IMG/VR virus record: IMGVR_UViG_3300000117_000106 | Location: 320 to 33,095 of that record | Origin: a virus | Length of the DNA stretch: 32,776 bases | Strand: one strand, 5' to 3' | Shown: in pieces, positions 8,429 to 15,681 of the stretch | How the letters are laid out: the number at the start of each line of letters is the position of its first letter | How positions within the stretch are numbered: the stretch's first letter is position 1 | The notes under the pieces: model-generated | Seen by the model: only the letters and a program-made list of their open reading frames with translations | Databases searched by the model: none | What the model was told of the DNA's origin: nothing | Made by a program: the position numbers and the translations under genes

Positions 8429-8654
8429 ACTAATTGACGTATATGCTAAGATGGATCTAGAAGATAAAGAATTTATGATAGGTCTATTGCGAAAAGATAT
8501 TAATGTATTTGTAGAGGTAGATCCTATGGATGGAGATAGCACTAGAGGTTTTTGTATGGATTTAGATCCGGAGATGCCTGTTAACATAAATGGAATTTCT
8601 TTACAACTAAATTTAGATAACACTTGTAAACTATGGAAAGAAGTAAAAGACTAG
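8415..8654 (+). CDS. Hypothetical protein (79 aa)
   Basis: An acidic 79-residue protein with no recognised family. The start at 8415 overlaps the preceding gene by 14 bases, and the end overlaps the next small gene by 22 bases. The composition (DLEDKEFMIGLLRKDINVFV) suggests a compact mixed alpha/beta fold. It is part of the early small-gene run. Confidence 0.55.
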   Translation: MIKDKLIDVYAKMDLEDKEFMIGLLRKDINVFVEVDPMDGDSTRGFCMDLDPEMPVNINGISLQLNLDNTCKLWKEVKD

Positions 8655-8773
8655 ACACTGATATTGTTGTGAGACGACGATTGGTAAACAACACTTGGAA
8701 GATAACTATTGCGGATACGCAAGAGACTTGGTGGGGGTATGTAAAAAGAAAGTATTATGGAGATCGTAAGTAA
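8633..8773 (+). CDS. Small basic hypothetical protein (46 aa)
   Basis: ATG 8633 opens a 46-codon frame that fills the otherwise empty stretch after the preceding gene. The product is basic and Trp-rich (MERSKRLDTDIVVRRRLVNN; ETWWGYVKRKYYGDRK). Strong positive charge with aromatic residues could mean nucleic-acid binding. It overlaps both neighbours in different frames, as seen throughout this operon. Confidence 0.5.
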   Translation: MERSKRLDTDIVVRRRLVNNTWKITIADTQETWWGYVKRKYYGDRK

Positions 8774-8870
8774 TTGTTGTAGCGCACCCTTAATGCCTAT
8801 TGAGACCGACATATGTAGTAAGTGTAAAGAACATTGTGATATAATATATTTGTATGATACTGCTGATTGA
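8757..8870 (+). CDS. Small zinc-knuckle protein (37 aa)
   Basis: This 37-codon gene encodes SNCCSAPLMPIETDICSKCK followed by EHCD, two Cys pairs with spacing typical of a zinc ribbon. Very similar CCxAP...ICxxCxEHC mini-proteins occur in many phages of Bacteroidota. It overlaps the exonuclease gene by 17 bases. Function is unknown; a small regulator or interaction module is possible. Confidence 0.6.
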   Translation: MEIVSNCCSAPLMPIETDICSKCKEHCDIIYLYDTAD

Positions 8871-9567
8871 CGCTGACTCTTTAGTATTCGGTGCGTGTTA
8901 TCGTAGGAAGAAACACCCGGATGACTATCCTTATTACACCGAGATAGAAGATGCACAAGGAAAGTTTGATGAGGTATTCCACTCGATGCTAAACGACATA
9001 GAAGAGATTTATACTGTGGATGACGTATTGGTCTTTAGTAATTCTAGAGGCAACTTTAGAAAGTTGATAACCAAAAAGTATAAGGCTCAAAGGAGAAAGT
9101 ATGAATTGCCTCCTCTACTAAACGAGATGCACAATTACGTTACTAGGCAATATGATAGTATTGGAGGTTGCGGAGTAGAGACCGACGATGTGGTAGCTAG
9201 ATATTGGAAAGAGATATGCGAGACTGCCGGAAGAGACAACGTTATGATCGTATCGCTTGACAAAGATTATAAGCAATTCCCTTGTCTATATTACAACTAC
9301 CACTATAAGCATAAATGCGTTTACGATATAAGCTATGAGGATGCGTTGTATAATTTCTACGAGCAAATGATAGCCGGAGACGTTGCTGACAATGTAAACT
9401 ACTTTCCCGGTAAGGGAGTTGTATTTGCTAGAGAGTATTATGCTGAATGTAAAACTGAGTATCAATACCGTAGGAAGTTGTACGAATTGTTTAAATTGCA
9501 ATATAAATCTAAAGCCAAAGAGAAGTATGCCGAATGTTATAACCTATTAAAACTAAGAACAGAATGA
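8854..9567 (+). CDS. FEN/5'-3' exonuclease family protein (T7 gp6-like)
   Basis: The 237-residue protein has the acidic signature of flap/5' nucleases. These are LIDADSL (4-10), a basic region around TKKYKAQRRKYE (~73-84), GVETDDVVARY (107-117), SLDKDYKQFP (134-143) and GDVADNV (~175-181) with its following helix-hairpin-like lysines. Members such as T7 gp6 remove RNA primers and degrade or recombine DNA. No DNA polymerase is visible in the window, so this would act with host polymerase. The start ATG 8854 overlaps a small zinc gene; the stop overlaps the DnaA-like gene by ATGA. Confidence 0.8.
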   Translation: MILLIDADSLVFGACYRRKKHPDDYPYYTEIEDAQGKFDEVFHSMLNDIEEIYTVDDVLVFSNSRGNFRKLITKKYKAQRRKYELPPLLNEMHNYVTRQYDSIGGCGVETDDVVARYWKEICETAGRDNVMIVSLDKDYKQFPCLYYNYHYKHKCVYDISYEDALYNFYEQMIAGDVADNVNYFPGKGVVFAREYYAECKTEYQYRRKLYELFKLQYKSKAKEKYAECYNLLKLRTE

Positions 9568-9959
9568 GACACATTGAGATAAAAAGAATTGTAGATGATT
9601 ACTACAAAATAGATATTGCTAAACGCACTAGAAGAACTTTGTATGTCGAAGCAAGATTTATGTATTTTAAATTGTGTATGGAATTTGCTGACAAAAAAAC
9701 TCTAGCGTCTATTGGCGCAAGTATTAAAAAAGACCACGCTACTGTGCTACACGGTATAAGAAGTATTGACGGACATATGACCTATGACAAAGACGTTAAT
9801 AATAAGTACCAAGACTTGTATAATTTGTGTAGTAAAGATGCCGGTATAAAACACTATGCCGGTAGTATGTACCATTCTATGGTAAATCAAATACGAATAC
9901 TAGGAGAAGAAAACAGAGATCTAAAAAGCAAAATAGAAAAATATGAAACAGTTGAGTAA
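9564..9959 (+). CDS. Stand-alone DnaA domain IV-like DNA-binding protein
   Basis: Residues ~5-90 of this 131-aa protein follow the C-terminal domain of bacterial DnaA. They include an arginine/tyrosine start (RTRRTLYVEARFMYF), KTLASIGASIKKDHATVLHG (45-64) with the diagnostic DHATVLH (57-63), and a final helix. In DnaA this domain reads 9-base DnaA boxes; the ATPase domain is absent here. A helical tail (~105-131) replaces it. It may direct phage replication to an origin, or mask or mimic host DnaA sites. It is flanked by the exonuclease (ATGA overlap) and the glycosyltransferase (17-base overlap). Confidence 0.75.
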   Translation: MRHIEIKRIVDDYYKIDIAKRTRRTLYVEARFMYFKLCMEFADKKTLASIGASIKKDHATVLHGIRSIDGHMTYDKDVNNKYQDLYNLCSKDAGIKHYAGSMYHSMVNQIRILGEENRDLKSKIEKYETVE

Positions 9960-10560
9960 TTTAAAAATGATAATAATGACTTGCGATGGTCGTGAGCATT
10001 TTTCAAATGAGTTAAAAGAACAATTGCCGAACGCAATAATTAATCACGATGACTTTACGGATTCCGGTAAGATGACTACAACCGCTTGGAATAATTATGT
10101 GAGAGGTTGGGAGTTAGCCGGAGACGATCCTTGTCTACAAATGGACGATGATATAATTTTGACCGACAACTTTGAGGAGAAAATACATTATGCTATAAGC
10201 AAATTTCCTAACCACGTTATTCAATTCTTTTCAATGAGAAAAAAAGATCTAGAGATTGGAACAAGATTAGAACCCGGTAGAACCTTTATGATGCAACAAT
10301 GTTACTACCTTCCTCAAAGCGTTGCAAAAGGAATTGCCGGGTTTTCTAAAGAATTTTACGAATACACAAAAGAAGTTACTTGCCCTACGGATCATTGTAT
10401 AGCAGACTATCTTAGTAAGATGAAAATGAAATACGTTATATGGATACCAAACCTAGTAGATCACAAAGTTGCAAAGTCAGCTATTGATAAAAGAAGAAGT
10501 AGCAAACGACAAAGCTTAACTTTCCAAGCTAGAGATTGGGTTAAAACTGACGACGAATGA
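9943..10560 (+). CDS. GT-A fold glycosyltransferase-like protein
   Basis: The 205-residue protein starts with a strand and a loop (MIIMTCDGREHF, 9-20) typical of nucleotide-sugar binding. It has an aspartate triad in LQMDDDIIL (65-73), the DxD metal/sugar-nucleotide site of GT-A enzymes, and an acidic-histidine C-terminal segment (PTDHCIADYL; IPNLVDHKV). It would transfer a sugar to an unknown acceptor: DNA base, capsid protein or glycan. ATG 9943 is used; ATG 9967, nearer the first strand, is possible. It begins a chain of enzyme genes joined by ATGA overlaps, pointing to a shared pathway. Confidence 0.7.
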   Translation: MKQLSNLKMIIMTCDGREHFSNELKEQLPNAIINHDDFTDSGKMTTTAWNNYVRGWELAGDDPCLQMDDDIILTDNFEEKIHYAISKFPNHVIQFFSMRKKDLEIGTRLEPGRTFMMQQCYYLPQSVAKGIAGFSKEFYEYTKEVTCPTDHCIADYLSKMKMKYVIWIPNLVDHKVAKSAIDKRRSSKRQSLTFQARDWVKTDDE

Positions 10561-11078
10561 AAAGAGAACAACTAATAAAAGAAGTTATTGAAAAGTATAA
10601 CTACAAAACTATTGTAGAGGTTGGCACTTACAGAGGTCAATTTGCTAAGCATCTTTTAGAAACAAATCCGGATAGATTATATCTAGTAGATCCGTGGAAA
10701 AAGTTTGACGAAGAAGTATTCCCGGATTATACTCATTACGACCAAGACAAATGGGATAGTTTGTTTTTATCCGTTAGTCAAAAGTTTAATTTTCCTAATG
10801 TCGAAATTGTAAGAAAAACATCTGACGAGGCAATAGATCATTTTAGAGATCAATCGCTAGATCTAGTTTACATAGACGGCAACCATACATACGAATATGT
10901 AAGAAAGGATCTGAACTTATGGGCGCCAAAGGTACAATATGGAGGTATGATTTGTGGACACGACTATCAATTAAAAAGCGTTACAAAAGCCGTGCAAGAA
11001 TTTCTAAATGAAAATGATCTAGAGATTAATTACTTGTCTAGTGAAAAATTTTGTGGAACTTATTTTATAAAGATATGA
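10557..11078 (+). CDS. Class I SAM-dependent methyltransferase
   Basis: The 173-residue protein has a clear Rossmann methyltransferase order. Motif I is EVGTYRG (21-27), motif II LVDPWK (43-48), and motif IV-like DLVYIDGNHTYEYV (102-115), then GGMICGHDY (129-137). The IDGxHxYE and GGxIxGHDY pair is characteristic of Methyltransf_24-type enzymes, which often O-methylate sugars or small molecules rather than DNA bases; no NPPY-type motif is present. It overlaps the glycosyltransferase and the oxygenase genes by four bases each (ATGA), suggesting it modifies the same product. Confidence 0.8.
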   Translation: MKREQLIKEVIEKYNYKTIVEVGTYRGQFAKHLLETNPDRLYLVDPWKKFDEEVFPDYTHYDQDKWDSLFLSVSQKFNFPNVEIVRKTSDEAIDHFRDQSLDLVYIDGNHTYEYVRKDLNLWAPKVQYGGMICGHDYQLKSVTKAVQEFLNENDLEINYLSSEKFCGTYFIKI

Positions 11079-11578
11079 ATGTAAAGTGGGATGTTAAATT
11101 AAAAGATTGGCAAAACTCAAATCCGGTTTTGTATTACGAAACAAATGCCTACCCGAATAAGTTTGACTTTAATGAGGCAGACTTTAATTCAGTTTTAGAT
11201 GGTAAAGGACATCAATTAAAAACTTGGGGAGGTGCAGAGAGTACCGGAGATCCGCATTGGATTGGAGTAAGGAAAGCTACACCGTTACATACAGATCCAA
11301 GGTATCCTAGATACAGTTGGCAATTAGTATTAAAGGTTGATAACTTTGGGTTAAGGGGAGTTGATAAAGACGAATTGCATTTAGAGGACAATATGCTAGT
11401 GCTACTTGACACACATTCACCACATCAACTTTTCTCTAGGAGTAAAGACGCAATGTATTATTTGGCTTGTAGTATGGATAGCAAAACTTTAATTGGCAAA
11501 AGGAGAGCCAAAGAAATGCTAATTAATTTTGTAGACAATCATTCTTTAGTAGACGATACAAAAAGAATATTTAAATGA
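11075..11578 (+). CDS. Putative 2OG-Fe(II) oxygenase / double-stranded beta-helix enzyme
   Basis: The 167-residue protein shows PLHTDPRYPRYSWQLVLKV (70-88) and LVLLDTHSPHQLFSR (108-122). H72 and D74, with a distal His (114 or 117), would form the HxD...H iron triad of 2-oxoglutarate oxygenases, on strands consistent with a jelly-roll core. ATG 11075 is chosen because it makes an ATGA overlap with the methyltransferase stop; ATG 11051 would add eight residues. It sits between a methyltransferase and a PAPS-reductase-like gene. A cupin without oxygenase activity is the alternative. Substrate unknown. Confidence 0.6.
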   Translation: MNVKWDVKLKDWQNSNPVLYYETNAYPNKFDFNEADFNSVLDGKGHQLKTWGGAESTGDPHWIGVRKATPLHTDPRYPRYSWQLVLKVDNFGLRGVDKDELHLEDNMLVLLDTHSPHQLFSRSKDAMYYLACSMDSKTLIGKRRAKEMLINFVDNHSLVDDTKRIFK

Positions 11579-12723
11579 AGATCTACAAAAAAACCAACGT
11601 ATATGAAGAGGCATTAAATAGGATACGTTATTTATACGAAGAGTTTGACGATGTAGTCGTAGGTTACTCAGGCGGAAAAGACTCGACTGTGACGCTTAGA
11701 TTAACTGTACAAGTGGCTAGAGAACTAGGTAAGCTACCGGTCAAAGCATTATTCTTAGATCAAGAGGCAGAGTGGGGTGCGGTTATAGATCATATGCGAG
11801 AAGTAAATGAGGATCCCGACATAGATCTAAGGTGGTATCAAATACCCTTTAAGATATTTAACGCATCGTCTAATATTAAACAATGGGTTATCGCTTGGGG
11901 AGAAGGGGAGGAGTGGATGCGAGATAGAGAGCCAAACTCTATAACGCAAAACAATTATGGTACAGAAAGATTCTATGAGTTGTTTAATAAAATAATAGCA
12001 ACGGATTTTCCGGATCGCACCGTATTATTGGGGGGTGTAAGGTCAGAAGAAAGCCCTAGAAGGCACGTGGCTATGACTCAAGATGTAACTTACAAATACA
12101 TTACTTGGGGTAAAAAGCTTAACCCGGAGAAAGATCAATTTACATTCTATCCTATTTACGATTGGTCATACACAGACGTATGGAAGTCTATACACGATAA
12201 CAATTGGAGTTACACTAAAGTTTATGACTACCAATATATGTACGGTGTCCCGGTTAGGAATATGAGAGTGTCTAACTTGCATCACGAGACGGCAATACAA
12301 ACGTTATTTTATTTGCAAGAGATAGAAAAAGATACTTGGTTAGCATTAACAAAACGTATGTCCGGAATTGACACTGCAGGTAAGTTAAGTAAGGATGACT
12401 ATTTTGTAAAAGAGTTGCCGTTTATGTTTAAGTCTTGGGAAGATTACAGAGATTTCTTAACAGAAAAGCTAGTCAATAATGACAAAGTAAAAGCTAAGTT
12501 TAAAAAGAAGTGGACGTTGTACGATAATCGCTACGAAAAAATGCTCAATAGAAACAAACTTATAAAAGCAGAGATCAATACAATTTTAGCCAACGATGAG
12601 GATTTAACTAAATTGCGTAACTTTACAGAAACACCTGAGATGGAGGACTTTAGAAGATGGACTAGAGGAGAGCCAATTAAGTACACTAGAATTAAAAACA
12701 AATACATACCGGATGAGTTATAA
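11575..12723 (+). CDS. PAPS-reductase-like PP-loop protein (IbrA-like, DUF3440 type)
   Basis: The 382-residue protein has the PP-loop SGGKDST at 32-38 in VVVGYSGGKDSTV. Further family segments are ALFLDQEAEW, GGVRSEESPRR and YPIYDWSYTDVWKSIHDNNW, followed by a long C-terminal extension like that of IbrA/DUF3440 proteins. I see no cysteine anywhere in it, so it lacks the catalytic Cys of true PAPS reductases (ECGLH). It probably uses ATP to activate a substrate by adenylation. Its immediate partner downstream is an IbrB-like ParB protein, the pairing known from E. coli prophage ibrAB. It is coupled to the oxygenase gene by ATGA. Confidence 0.8.
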   Translation: MKIYKKTNVYEEALNRIRYLYEEFDDVVVGYSGGKDSTVTLRLTVQVARELGKLPVKALFLDQEAEWGAVIDHMREVNEDPDIDLRWYQIPFKIFNASSNIKQWVIAWGEGEEWMRDREPNSITQNNYGTERFYELFNKIIATDFPDRTVLLGGVRSEESPRRHVAMTQDVTYKYITWGKKLNPEKDQFTFYPIYDWSYTDVWKSIHDNNWSYTKVYDYQYMYGVPVRNMRVSNLHHETAIQTLFYLQEIEKDTWLALTKRMSGIDTAGKLSKDDYFVKELPFMFKSWEDYRDFLTEKLVNNDKVKAKFKKKWTLYDNRYEKMLNRNKLIKAEINTILANDEDLTKLRNFTETPEMEDFRRWTRGEPIKYTRIKNKYIPDEL

Positions 12724-13378
12724 GAAGGCTATCAAAAAAGAACTAGACAACGCAAAGGATCCCATAGAGTTTCTAGAACAAGTCAAAGAATACATAGACG
12801 AGATCTCTCCGCTAAACCATCAGCCTATAAACAGAGTGCGATGGGTAGAACTAGACCAAGTACAAGCTAATGACTACAATCCTAATAGTGTCGCTAAGAC
12901 CGAAATGAAACTATTGTACACCTCTATTTCACACGACGGATATACACAACCGATAGTTACAGTATATGACGAAAAGAAAAACAAGTATGTTATCGTAGAT
13001 GGATTTCACAGATACTTTACGTCAAAAAGATACAAAGACATAAGCGAGAGGAATCACAATAGATTGCCGGTGGTAGTAATCGACAAAGACATTAACGACA
13101 GAATGGCGTCTACTATAAGACACAATAGGGCAAGAGGTAAGCACTCCGTATCCGGGATGAGTAATATTGTATTCGAGATGCTAGATAACGGTTGGGAGGA
13201 TGTAGACATTTTAAAAGAACTAGGTATGGAGGCAGAGGAGTTGATACGTCTAAAACACATTACCGGATTCTCAAAACTATTCGAGGACACAGAGTACAAA
13301 CAATCTTGGGAACTAAAAAAACAATTGCAAATTAAAAAGAAATACAAAGATGAAAATCCAAAAGAAAAAATTATCTGA
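12713..13378 (+). CDS. ParB-like nuclease-domain protein (IbrB-like)
   Basis: The 221-residue product carries a ParB/Srx-like fold. It shows RWVELDQVQANDYNPNSV (43-60), DGYTQPIVT (75-83), YVIVDGFHRY (92-101) and RHNRARGKHS (136-145), then an HTH-like segment (DILKELGMEAEELIRL). The VDGFHR motif is the ParB nucleotide/catalytic site; RHNRARGxH is typical of IbrB. It overlaps the IbrA-like gene by 11 bases, so the two are likely made together and act as a complex. The biochemical role of the pair is not firmly established; nucleic-acid modification and transcription control have been proposed. Confidence 0.75.
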   Translation: MSYKKAIKKELDNAKDPIEFLEQVKEYIDEISPLNHQPINRVRWVELDQVQANDYNPNSVAKTEMKLLYTSISHDGYTQPIVTVYDEKKNKYVIVDGFHRYFTSKRYKDISERNHNRLPVVVIDKDINDRMASTIRHNRARGKHSVSGMSNIVFEMLDNGWEDVDILKELGMEAEELIRLKHITGFSKLFEDTEYKQSWELKKQLQIKKKYKDENPKEKII

Positions 13379-13892
13379 GATAAAGCCATATTGGAGAAAC
13401 GCTAGGAAAAATAACAAGACCGTAGATGCGTTGAAGAAGTCTATACAAAAGTACGGATTTAACCAACCTTTAGTGTTAGATAAAAAAAACGTTATAATAA
13501 CAGGACACGCTAGATACAAAGCACTAACACAACTTGGATATGAGGAGGTTGATTGTGTAGTCGCAGAACTAGACGAACAAAAGGCAAAGGAGTACAGAAT
13601 AGCAGATAACAAAACACACGAACTAACCATATGGGATAACGATGAGTTAATGGTAGAGTTGAGAGAGATAGGAAACAATGTAGATATGCAAGACTACTTT
13701 CAAAACATAAACCTAAACAATTGGCTAGACGATAGCGTGGGATTCAATATAGACGAAATAACACAAACCGACTACCAACAAAAGCAAGAGGAGATGGAGA
13801 GCAAATACAAAGATCCACTACAAAAGAAGGCTACCATAACTTGCCCACATTGTTTCGAGGAGTTTGAACTAGATAAAAAAGACATACTATAA
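13350..13892 (+). CDS. Second ParB-like nuclease-domain protein with Cys knuckle
   Basis: A 180-residue protein whose first ~110 residues form a ParB-like domain: LSEIKPYWRNARKN (8-21), YGFNQPLVLD (35-44), IITGHARYKAL (49-59) and EYRIADNKTHEL (81-92). In many phages this same domain is the N-terminus of DNA methylases; here the methylase part is absent. The C-terminus ends with TCPHCFEEFELD, half a zinc ribbon (CPHC, 165-168). It overlaps the IbrB-like gene by 29 bases and precedes the small terminase, so it could link DNA marking to packaging. That link is inference. Confidence 0.75.
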   Translation: MKIQKKKLSEIKPYWRNARKNNKTVDALKKSIQKYGFNQPLVLDKKNVIITGHARYKALTQLGYEEVDCVVAELDEQKAKEYRIADNKTHELTIWDNDELMVELREIGNNVDMQDYFQNINLNNWLDDSVGFNIDEITQTDYQQKQEEMESKYKDPLQKKATITCPHCFEEFELDKKDIL

Positions 13893-13904
13893 TAGCTAGA
13901 AATA

Positions 13905-13922
13905 GTTACCAAAAATTGTAAC
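13905..13922 (+). promoter_or_regulatory. Small hairpin in the leader of the small terminase gene
   Basis: GTTAC and GTAAC, separated by 8 bases, can form a 5-bp stem ending 2 bases before ATG 13925. It could affect translation start. The stem is short and may be chance. Confidence 0.2.
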
Positions 13923-13924
13923 TT

Positions 13925-14275
13925 ATGAGTGACAAAAGTGACACTAAAAAAAAGGCAATGATAGACGCACTAGAAAATTCACTAGGCATAGTATCCGTTG
14001 CGTGTAAGAAAACAAACATTAGTAGGCAAACGCATTATAGATGGTGCGAAGAAGATGCGGAGTATGAGAAAGAAGCCAAAGGTATAATTGAAGCAACTAT
14101 TGATTTTGTCGAGTCAAAGTTATTTGAGAATATATCAAACAACAAAGAGGCATCAATAATGTTCTACTTAAAATCTAAAGCAAAGCATAGAGGCTATGTA
14201 GAAAGACAAGAGTTAGATATGGGTAACAATAACCACTTCCGCATAGAGATCATAGATGAAGAGTTACCGGACTAA
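13925..14275 (+). CDS. terS: Terminase small subunit
   Basis: The 116-residue protein has an N-terminal helix-turn-helix, SLGIVSVACKKTNISRQTHY (19-38) followed by RWCEED, of the type used by TerS proteins to read the packaging site. A helical oligomerisation region (IDFVESKLFENISNNKEASI) and ASIMFYLKSKAKHRGYVER follow, a segment common to phage TerS and homeodomain-like phage proteins. It overlaps the large terminase by 20 bases. Together they recognise and cut concatemeric DNA. Gene position directly upstream of terL supports the call. Confidence 0.85.
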   Translation: MSDKSDTKKKAMIDALENSLGIVSVACKKTNISRQTHYRWCEEDAEYEKEAKGIIEATIDFVESKLFENISNNKEASIMFYLKSKAKHRGYVERQELDMGNNNHFRIEIIDEELPD

Positions 14276-15416
14276 CATAGTCTTTAGACATCTTGAACAA
14301 TCTAAAAAGAGAATTACGATTGAGCAAGGGGGAACTAGATCCGGGAAAACGTTTAACATTCTTTTATGGATCATATTCTCGTATTGCCTAAGAAACAAAA
14401 ACAAAACTATCTCAATTGCTAGAAAGACATTTCCTTCGCTAAGGACATCTGCAATGAGAGACTTCATAGAAATACTAAGACAAAGCGAATTATATGACGA
14501 CCTTCTTCATAACAAAAGTAGTGCTGAATATCGCCTTAACAACAATCTTATTGAATTCATTTCGTTAGACCAACCGGCAAAGGTGCGTGGTAAGAAAAGA
14601 GATTTGCTATTCATAAACGAGGCAAACGAATTGCATTGGGAAGATTGGCAACAATTAATATTCCGTACAAAAGAAAAGATCATTTTAGACTACAATCCGT
14701 CAGACGAGTTTCATTGGATCTACGACAAAGTAAAGACAAGAGAGGATGCGGATTTCTACATTACTACATATAGAAACAATCCATTCCTTGACAATTCTAT
14801 TAAGTCTGAGATAAAGCGTTTGAAGGACACAGATCCAAACTATTGGAAGATCTATGGACTAGGTGAGGTTGGAGCCGGCAAAAGCCTTATATTCAATTCT
14901 AGCTTAGCTGATAGCATTCCGGAAGAAGCGCAATTCTTATCATACGGTATGGACTTCGGATATACAAATGACCCGACGACACTAATTGGCGTTTGGAAGT
15001 ATGACACAAATTTGTATTTCAAAGAGTACATTTATCGCACCGGTATGACTAACCAAGATATTGCTAAGGAACTTGAAAGACTAGACATCGGAAGAAGGCA
15101 AGAGATCTTCGCAGATTCAGCAGAGCCAAAGAGCATAGATGAGATCTACAAATTCGGATGGAATATTAAACCGGCAACTAAGGGTAGAGACTCAATTAAT
15201 ATTGGGATAGATATGCTAAAGAGGTACAAGCTATTTGTAACTAAGGATAGCCAAAACACAATTAAGGAGTTTAGGAATTACAAGTGGAAGGAGGACAAAA
15301 ATGGTAACGTATTAAATCAACCTGTGGATATGTACAACCATAGTTTAGACGCTTGTCGTTATGCGACATATAACAAACTAGCAAGACCTAACTACGGCAA
15401 ATACGCAATCAGATAA
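14256..15416 (+). CDS. terL: Terminase large subunit
   Basis: This is the packaging motor and nuclease. In the 386-residue product the ATPase part shows Walker A GGTRSGKT (25-32), KTFPSLRTSAMRDF and Walker B LLFINEA (117-123). The RNase-H-like nuclease part shows GMDFGYTNDPTTL (231-243), FADSAEP (285-291) and a distal Asp in HSLDACRYA (362-370). The layout resembles PBSX-type terminases. Length is slightly short but all catalytic motifs are present. It docks on the portal (29905) during DNA filling. The upstream start 14256 lies inside terS and is the only one giving a full N-terminus. Confidence 0.93.
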   Translation: MKSYRTNIVFRHLEQSKKRITIEQGGTRSGKTFNILLWIIFSYCLRNKNKTISIARKTFPSLRTSAMRDFIEILRQSELYDDLLHNKSSAEYRLNNNLIEFISLDQPAKVRGKKRDLLFINEANELHWEDWQQLIFRTKEKIILDYNPSDEFHWIYDKVKTREDADFYITTYRNNPFLDNSIKSEIKRLKDTDPNYWKIYGLGEVGAGKSLIFNSSLADSIPEEAQFLSYGMDFGYTNDPTTLIGVWKYDTNLYFKEYIYRTGMTNQDIAKELERLDIGRRQEIFADSAEPKSIDEIYKFGWNIKPATKGRDSINIGIDMLKRYKLFVTKDSQNTIKEFRNYKWKEDKNGNVLNQPVDMYNHSLDACRYATYNKLARPNYGKYAIR

Positions 15417-15433
15417 AAATAGTTTATTAAAAA

Positions 15434-15492
15434 TTTGTTGATAACAAAAAAAAGTCGTATATTAGAGTATTGTTTAATTAAAACCTAATATT
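15434..15492 (+). promoter_or_regulatory. Bacteroidota-type promoter and leader (copy 2)
   Basis: TTTG (15434-15437), a 20-base spacer and TATATTAG (15458-15465) form the promoter. AGTATTGTTTAA (15466-15477) and TTAAAAC follow before ATG 15493. The upstream word TTTGTTGATAA and the 27-base distance from the leader word to the ATG are the same as at 7458-7515. Confidence 0.75.
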
Positions 15493-15681
15493 ATGAGTAG
15501 AATTATTAAATGCGAATTTTCCTCTAAGGAAATAAGTATTATTGAAAAAGCTTTGCGAGATGCTAAAACAAAAACTTATCGTGAAGGAAAAGTGGATCTT
15601 TCTCGCTCGATCCAAAATGTTAAATCTAAAATCCTTAAATTTGAGAGAGAAGGATTGGAAACTATAAATGTAACGATATGA
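15493..15681 (+). CDS. Hypothetical protein, first gene of accessory island (62 aa)
   Basis: A basic 62-residue helical protein (IIEKALRDAKTKTYREGKVD) without a recognised family. It follows the second copy of the conserved promoter/leader and overlaps the next gene by 4 bases (ATGA). Its location between terminase and tail genes, on its own transcription unit, suggests an early accessory function such as host takeover or anti-defence; there is no motif evidence for either. Confidence 0.6.
   Translation: MSRIIKCEFSSKEISIIEKALRDAKTKTYREGKVDLSRSIQNVKSKILKFEREGLETINVTI

Follow-up and report, generated by a model that had tools for sequence, protein, structure and literature searches.

An exchangeable enzyme slot on a conserved IbrA-IbrB-ParB2 core beside phage terminase genes: a candidate modular DNA-hypermodification locus

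We analyzed a stretch of 32,776 nucleotides (hereafter the window; bases 320-33095 of the 34,693-base IMG/VR virus record IMGVR_UViG_3300000117_000106) from a marine-type bacterial virus (phage), in which six genes with overlapping reading frames lie on the + strand at 9943-13892. They encode a glycosyltransferase-like protein (GT), a methyltransferase, an oxygenase-like protein (OX), an IbrA-like PP-loop protein, an IbrB-like protein and a second ParB-fold protein (ParB2). Comparison with relatives showed that the six genes form two units: IbrA, IbrB and ParB2, from 11573 onwards, are a conserved core fixed to the terminase genes, and the GT, methyltransferase and OX genes are an exchangeable block in front of it, at 9948-11572. 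We consider it probable that this tailoring slot and the IbrAB/ParB core together modify phage DNA and constitute a modular hypermodification locus. The original prediction, made from the sequence alone, had joined all six genes in a single pathway and was partly supported: the six gene calls were all present on one strand with the expected overlaps, and the family matches and the HxD...H motif agreed with them, but the first three genes proved exchangeable and the last three occur in company with a large variety of other decorating enzymes or without any, so that the observation was right and its interpretation half right.

Fixed core and exchange slot

Relatives were gathered by IMG/VR scans with IbrA, OX and GT alignments; with the window and the loci found earlier, the total came to 154 distinct loci. 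Slot sets were counted over the 116 loci with sufficient upstream sequence. The gene maps repeatedly gave the same order, (ParB2, small orphan domain) - variable enzymes - IbrA - IbrB - (ParB2) - small terminase (TerS) - large terminase (TerL), with IbrB behind IbrA in most of them. The slot repertoire is small, namely GT, OX, a GNAT acyltransferase, a methylase-like enzyme with a DPPW motif, two S-adenosylmethionine (SAM) methyltransferase families and a second GT family, and 18 distinct sets of decorating enzymes were found.

The closest relative, L004, has an IbrA 96% identical to that of the window. The two sequences were 88.8% identical over 8633-9947 and 91.9% identical over 11573-15502, and gave no alignment over 9948-11572, which is the block of GT, methyltransferase and OX genes; L004 holds there an orphan domain, a GNAT acyltransferase and the DPPW DNA-methylase-like enzyme. 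Further near-isogenic exchange pairs were L129/L006, L064/L122, L160/L064, L071/L138, L079/L161, L051/L049 and L146/L140, and in most of these the right breakpoint was about 6 bp or less from the IbrA start. The majority of the near-isogenic exchanges set GT plus OX against GNAT and/or DPPW enzymes. Slot families differed in 21 of the 42 pairs whose IbrA proteins are at least 85% identical, and on the IbrA tree (111 rows; a quick tree in which the placement of some long rows is unsure) the slot set changed at least 62 times in comparison to a mean of 80.6 for shuffled labels, suggesting that the slot set is partly inherited and often swapped. The exchange is exact and repeated, the core is fixed and the flanks are conserved; recombination within these flanks would account for the exchange.

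The slot enzymes were also linked to the core by scans made without IbrA. IbrA lay within 2.5 kb in 60 of the 66 distinct loci found by the GT profile alone and in 14 of the 15 found by the OX profile alone, and the loci lacking a nearby IbrA look like contig-edge truncations in the gene maps, demonstrating that the association is more than chance. Independent scattering of the genes in relatives had been named as evidence against the original prediction; the decorating enzymes do vary independently of the core, yet they are confined to one slot beside IbrA. L187, L190, L171 and L177 are arranged differently: GT and OX follow IbrB, and the terminase is preceded by two genes on the opposite strand, of about 160 and 350 aa.

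Within the window, junctions 1/2, 2/3 and 3/4 of the six genes are ATGA overlaps, genes 4 and 5 overlap by 11 bp and genes 5 and 6 by 29 bp. The start of gene 3 was taken as the ATG at 11075, which gives the ATGA overlap with the methyltransferase gene, while the open reading frame tool gave an upstream TTG at 11051. The chain of overlaps begins further upstream, with a 5'-3' exonuclease gene (8854-9567) followed by the DnaA C-terminal-like gene, which shares 17 bp with gene 1, and overlap alone therefore does not delimit a six-gene unit. The placement between replication genes and terminase had been predicted correctly, with the DnaA-like gene on the left and TerS and TerL on the right (Table 1).

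Table 1. Coordinates of the slot, core and flanking features in the window
Feature	Coordinates	Strand	Evidence
Slot gene 1, glycosyltransferase-like (GT), 205 aa	9943..10560	+	PHROG 854 8.8e-10; DDD motif
Slot gene 2, class I SAM methyltransferase, 173 aa, TylF/Methyltransf_24 type	10557..11078	+	PF13578 4.9e-20, TylF 3.6e-5, PHROG 2675
Slot gene 3, double-stranded beta-helix oxygenase-like (OX), 167 aa	11075..11578	+	H72-x-D74...H117; AlphaFold2 model
Core gene, IbrA-like PP-loop protein, 382 aa	11575..12723	+	PF01507 4.9e-14, DUF3440 9.1e-6, PHROG 2302 1.6e-81
Core gene, IbrB-like ParB/Srx-fold protein, 221 aa, DGFHR motif	12713..13378	+	PF02195 2.8e-6, PHROG 2159 1.6e-75
Core gene, ParB2 (second ParB-fold), 180 aa, TGHAR motif, C-terminal CPxC	13350..13892	+	PF02195 6.3e-8, PHROG 620 9.6e-48
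Exchange slot	9948..11572	.	zero similarity to L004; flanks 88.8% (left), 91.9% (right)
Left slot flank, DnaA C-terminal-domain-like DNA-binding protein, 131 aa	9564..9959	+	PF08299 6.4e-10
Right flank, small terminase-like protein	13925..14275	+	PHROG 4044 1.4e-5
Right flank, large terminase subunit	14256..15416	+	PF04466 2.1e-22, PF17288 1.5e-19

Core proteins, slot enzymes and their replacements

IbrA and IbrB are adjacent on the same strand, the former a PP-loop/DUF3440 protein and the latter of ParB/Srx fold, and this pairing, already recognized in the original prediction, is kept in most related loci. IbrA carries the PP-loop SGGKDS and an invariant DQEAE motif. Among 150 IbrA relatives no cysteine column rose above 59% and none was invariant, and the PAPS-reductase cysteine motif EC.[ILMV][HN] was present in only 2 of 191 relatives, which makes the usual name 'PAPS reductase' doubtful. 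IbrA scored far below the NCBIfam cut-offs for the DndC, CysD and CysH/PAPS reductase models (for DndC, TIGR03183, 33.5 bits against a cut-off of 290.4), and its best defence-family matches in PADLOC were DndC (4.8e-12) and BrxP (2.1e-9). Judged by these matches, IbrA is a PP-loop ATPase related to the DNA-phosphorothioation enzymes, with neither the PAPS reductase nor the DndC assignment supported. PAPS reductase is the name that annotations give to phage IbrA proteins, and some of the cysH auxiliary gene calls in viral sulfur metabolism may belong to the IbrA family.

For IbrB, weak matches to Noc, SerK and SbnI were observed. ParB2 matched the N-terminal domain of phage ParB-DNA methyltransferases (PHROG 498 'DNA methyltransferase', 1.7e-33) and a Type II methyltransferase in PADLOC (1.3e-23), and ParB folds fused to methyltransferases in phages have been reported by a recent survey (PMC12704722). 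The nearest chromosomal IbrAB pairs, from Lachnospiraceae, lack slot genes and show 26-29% identity to the window IbrA, suggesting that the pair can work without slot enzymes.

In the GT family (42 members), D36, D70, D150 and H174 are invariant, D70 lying within the DDD motif. A GT25 (PF01755) match was found in four of the 42 relatives (best 1.2e-6) and not in the window GT, and a PDB profile search with GT returned nothing useful. The methyltransferase family of the window is rare, occupying 5 of the 116 slots, and elsewhere it shares slots with a sugar transferase; the resemblance to TylF suggests that it may act in sugar O-methylation.

Gene 3 matched no known family in the Pfam and PHROG searches, and as a single query it retrieved no phage record and no IMG/VR relative; the family emerged only through an alignment. 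The fold predicted from 5 sequences had a pLDDT of 35, while the AlphaFold2 model from 40 relatives was confident (pLDDT 94.5, pTM 0.90) and formed a double-stranded beta-helix, with cupins, AspH, prolyl hydroxylases, a nucleoside-antibiotic hydroxylase and AlkB homologues as structural neighbours (Foldseek/VIA). H72, D74 and H117 are invariant in the 40 sequences and H114 is nearly so. The model and these residues support gene 3 as a predicted metal-dependent double-stranded beta-helix oxygenase, and 2-oxoglutarate is a possible co-substrate. A TET/JBP assignment was also considered and was not adopted, as there was no Pfam match and TET/JBP was absent from the listed PDB matches; kinship is still possible. 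The gene directly upstream of OX was GT in 32 cases, the MTw methyltransferase in three, a 321-aa gene in two and a contig edge in one, and in the gene maps the MTw and 321-aa genes themselves follow GT. OX thus comes with GT, which would fit a hydroxylation that creates the sugar acceptor.

The DPPW enzyme that replaces GT and OX is the commonest non-sugar slot partner. It matched the PF01555 N6_N4 DNA methylase family in 20 of 26 members, has an invariant DPPW motif and a SAM site, and its profile matched the structures of DpnA, CcrM and MboIIA. The orphan domain, which we term FAKT, is about 90 aa long (L004:4551-4820), has relatives in at least 70 of the 116 slots and is missing from the window. 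It shows invariant P-H, Y and N residues in the pattern FAKT...PHxYT...YWTM...INR, occurs alone or fused to a methyltransferase, alongside IbrA in most relatives, and is found in Rhizobium and Butyrivibrio plasmids too; it gave no match in Pfam, PHROG, NCBIfam, PADLOC or the PDB profile search.

Target of the locus and alternative explanations

Cultured phages were compared for what occupies the interval between ParB and terminase. Tres (Rosebushvirus, Bclasvirinae), used in place of Rosebush as both are assigned to the same species, carries TGT-QueC-QueD-QueE-GTPCHI there, KayaCho carries a TGT gene (gp2 of Zemanar and Donny are homologues of the KayaCho TGT), and Mycobacterium phage Phlyer carries IbrA-IbrB. 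The flanks of Phlyer and Tres are homologous (ParB 48% over 146 aa, terminase 57-62%), and in Rosebush DNA about 28% of guanines are replaced by dPreQ0 (PMC6884629). IbrA-IbrB shares its genomic position, therefore, with the proven dPreQ0 pathway of related mycobacteriophages. Across Bclasvirinae (L276, L279-L283) the interval from the gp1 ParB to the terminase is variable, holding a queuosine-type set, TGT alone, IbrAB, or a deacetylase/deaminase set (Donny, AlanGrant), and it may be a general DNA-modification slot.

Related loci were also seen elsewhere. In Microbacterium phage Hendrix, whose genome is circularly permuted (PMC7302621), one end of the record carries IbrA together with two proteins of the GT family, a fusion of orphan domain and methyltransferase, and an acyltransferase; IbrB, the ParB2-type proteins and terminase lie at the opposite end. 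The slots of Rasputia and Leaf are related, yet different, and Arthrobacter phage LiSara has the order ParB-IbrA-IbrB-methyltransferase-helix-turn-helix-TerL. A prophage-like locus of the Treponema bryantii isolate B25 (L209) holds an orphan domain, GT, two ParB2, a methyltransferase, IbrA, IbrB, GT, a DNA-methylase-like enzyme, TerS and TerL, and IbrA-type loci (L210, L215) were noted on a DPANN archaeal metagenome-assembled-genome contig and an Actinarchaeum halophilum plasmid.

DNA would be the most likely target, and we infer both this substrate and the chemistry from protein families and gene position: the slot elsewhere holds an N6_N4 DNA methylase, ParB2 matches ParB-DNA methyltransferases, the position is equivalent to that of the dPreQ0 pathway, the packaging genes are adjacent, and the nearest defence matches of IbrA, DndC and BrxP, modify DNA with sulfur (PMC12839542). 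In the mechanism we propose, the IbrA PP-loop ATPase, IbrB and ParB2 would recognize phage DNA before packaging, and the core would use ATP either to activate the base or to attach a small reactive group to it, while the slot in front of IbrA would supply the tailoring enzymes. In this phage the oxygenase would make a hydroxyl group, the GT would add a sugar there and the O-methyltransferase would cap the sugar, an order suggested by the family types and by the association of OX with GT; the oxidized, glycosylated and methylated modification of the original prediction is retained in this form, with its steps drawn from the enzyme families. Close relatives would swap the block for GNAT plus the DNA-methylase-like enzyme, for a SAM methyltransferase or for other sugar transferases, and related phages could thus carry different DNA coats and evade restriction or modification-dependent nucleases. 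For a more specific proposal we see about an even chance, namely that IbrA-IbrB-ParB2 is the core of an unrecognized hypermodification chemistry, a PP-loop-activated base adduct, on top of which alternative tailoring sets (hydroxylation, glycosylation and O-methylation versus acylation and N-methylation) are exchanged, leaving the DNA of close relatives chemically distinct in a serotype-like manner.

Several observations weigh against DNA hypermodification by this locus. The best structural Z score of OX was only 7.9, and in the 40 sequences OX has no conserved Arg/Lys for 2-oxoglutarate after the distal His, the nearly invariant R79 not being at that position. Enzymes of sugar type could target protein or cell-surface glycans, and the enzymes exchanged in the slot do not necessarily act on the same substrate. 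IbrAB occurs without recognized slot genes in the Lachnospiraceae chromosomal pair and in phages FCV-1 and Phlyer, suggesting that the core also functions independently. The near-isogenic pairs are metagenome contigs, for which the identical boundary in many independent contigs is not explained by single assembly chimeras.

The slot could instead be a place where unrelated accessory genes (morons) accumulate, the core and slot genes having no common product; the highly variable slot content, with its 18 sets, and the existence of IbrAB without slot genes would agree with this. We regard it as rather unlikely, as the slot is filled from a limited set of transferases plus an oxygenase and not with random cargo, its GT and OX families occur almost only beside IbrA, and OX comes with GT. 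If the enzymes decorated a protein of the virion or a glycan on the host surface, as in capsid glycosylation or receptor masking, the GT25 matches (a lipopolysaccharide and collagen type) of some GT relatives, the resemblance of the methyltransferase to sugar O-methyltransferases and the protein hydroxylases, e.g. AspH, among the fold neighbours of OX would be accounted for, while the N6/N4 DNA methylase family in the same slot elsewhere, the ParB-type partners and the position equivalent to the dPreQ0 pathway would not, and we consider such a target unlikely. The original prediction had left the choice between DNA and a capsid glycan, of which DNA is now favoured, on the methylase, ParB2 and the dPreQ0 position, and the glycan disfavoured.

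PP-loop ATPases are common in tRNA modification, one MT2 protein matched a PHROG named tRNA methyltransferase, and tRNA genes lie just upstream in Hendrix and Rasputia, all of which would suit a pathway that modifies RNA, e.g. tRNA anticodons, and so evades host anticodon nucleases. Such a pathway seems very unlikely to us, given that the window has zero tRNA genes, that any were present in only 4 of the 60 related loci scanned, and that the cassette is linked to the ParB and terminase genes. That IbrA is a PAPS reductase serving sulfur metabolism, as phage annotations and PHROGs have it, agrees with its PF01507 domain match and the name of PHROG 2302, and is nevertheless highly improbable in view of the cysteine columns and motif counts described above, the cysH/PAPS reductase scores far under the NCBIfam cut-off and the presence of IbrB behind IbrA in most gene maps.

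If DNA hypermodification by this locus is true, IbrA/IbrB, which until now has carried the labels of virulence regulator, prophage co-activator or helper in sulfur metabolism, gains a concrete role in DNA modification, which would explain why phages keep the pair beside their packaging genes, and the slot would be a site where DNA chemistry is swapped while the remaining genome stays nearly identical. In viromes, cysH is a commonly reported auxiliary metabolic gene; some of the viral 'PAPS reductase/cysH' calls behind virus-driven sulfur cycling would then be misread. The idea is testable in cultured Microbacterium and Mycobacterium smegmatis phages. We found no description of the cassette or of the slot exchange in the open literature, our coverage of which was incomplete, and overlap is possible with Iyer et al. 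2013 (NAR 41:7635), reportedly an earlier survey of predicted base-modification systems.

Comparison with known systems

The dPreQ0/dG+ locus of Rosebush and Tres likewise has modification genes between a ParB-like gene and terminase, in the interval held by IbrA-IbrB in relatives. Its GTPCHI and QueCDE make the deazapurine, which TGT inserts, whereas the window cassette has no TGT or Que genes and combines a PP-loop/ParB core with exchangeable transferases. In DNA phosphorothioation (DndC, SspD/BrxP), IbrA aligns with DndC and BrxP, and the ParB-fold protein DndB is linked to Dnd; unlike those systems, the window IbrA has no conserved cysteines and a DndC score below the cut-off, no DndD or DndE was seen, and there is additional sugar and oxygen chemistry. 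The oxidation and glucosylation of the TET/JBP or T4 type follow the same logic of hydroxylation and then sugar addition, consistent with OX coming with GT, but the window OX and GT are from other families, with no TET/JBP Pfam match.

The thymidine hypermodification clusters (aG/PT-PPlase, 5-hmU kinase), known from marine and cultured phages, also use several tailoring enzymes per modified base (PMC9599517). Among the window genes scanned, nucleotide-precursor enzymes were not found, and neither were the thymidylate-synthase homologue, kinase and aG/PT-PPlase of those clusters. The IbrA/IbrB pair of Escherichia, Lachnospiraceae, Flavobacterium and other phages consists of the same two adjacent families, IbrA and then IbrB, and has so far been described as virulence related, phage IbrA/IbrB being possible virulence factors (PMC4541368), or as prophage co-activators (PMC4490671); the window pair differs from it in being embedded with ParB2, decorating enzymes and terminase.

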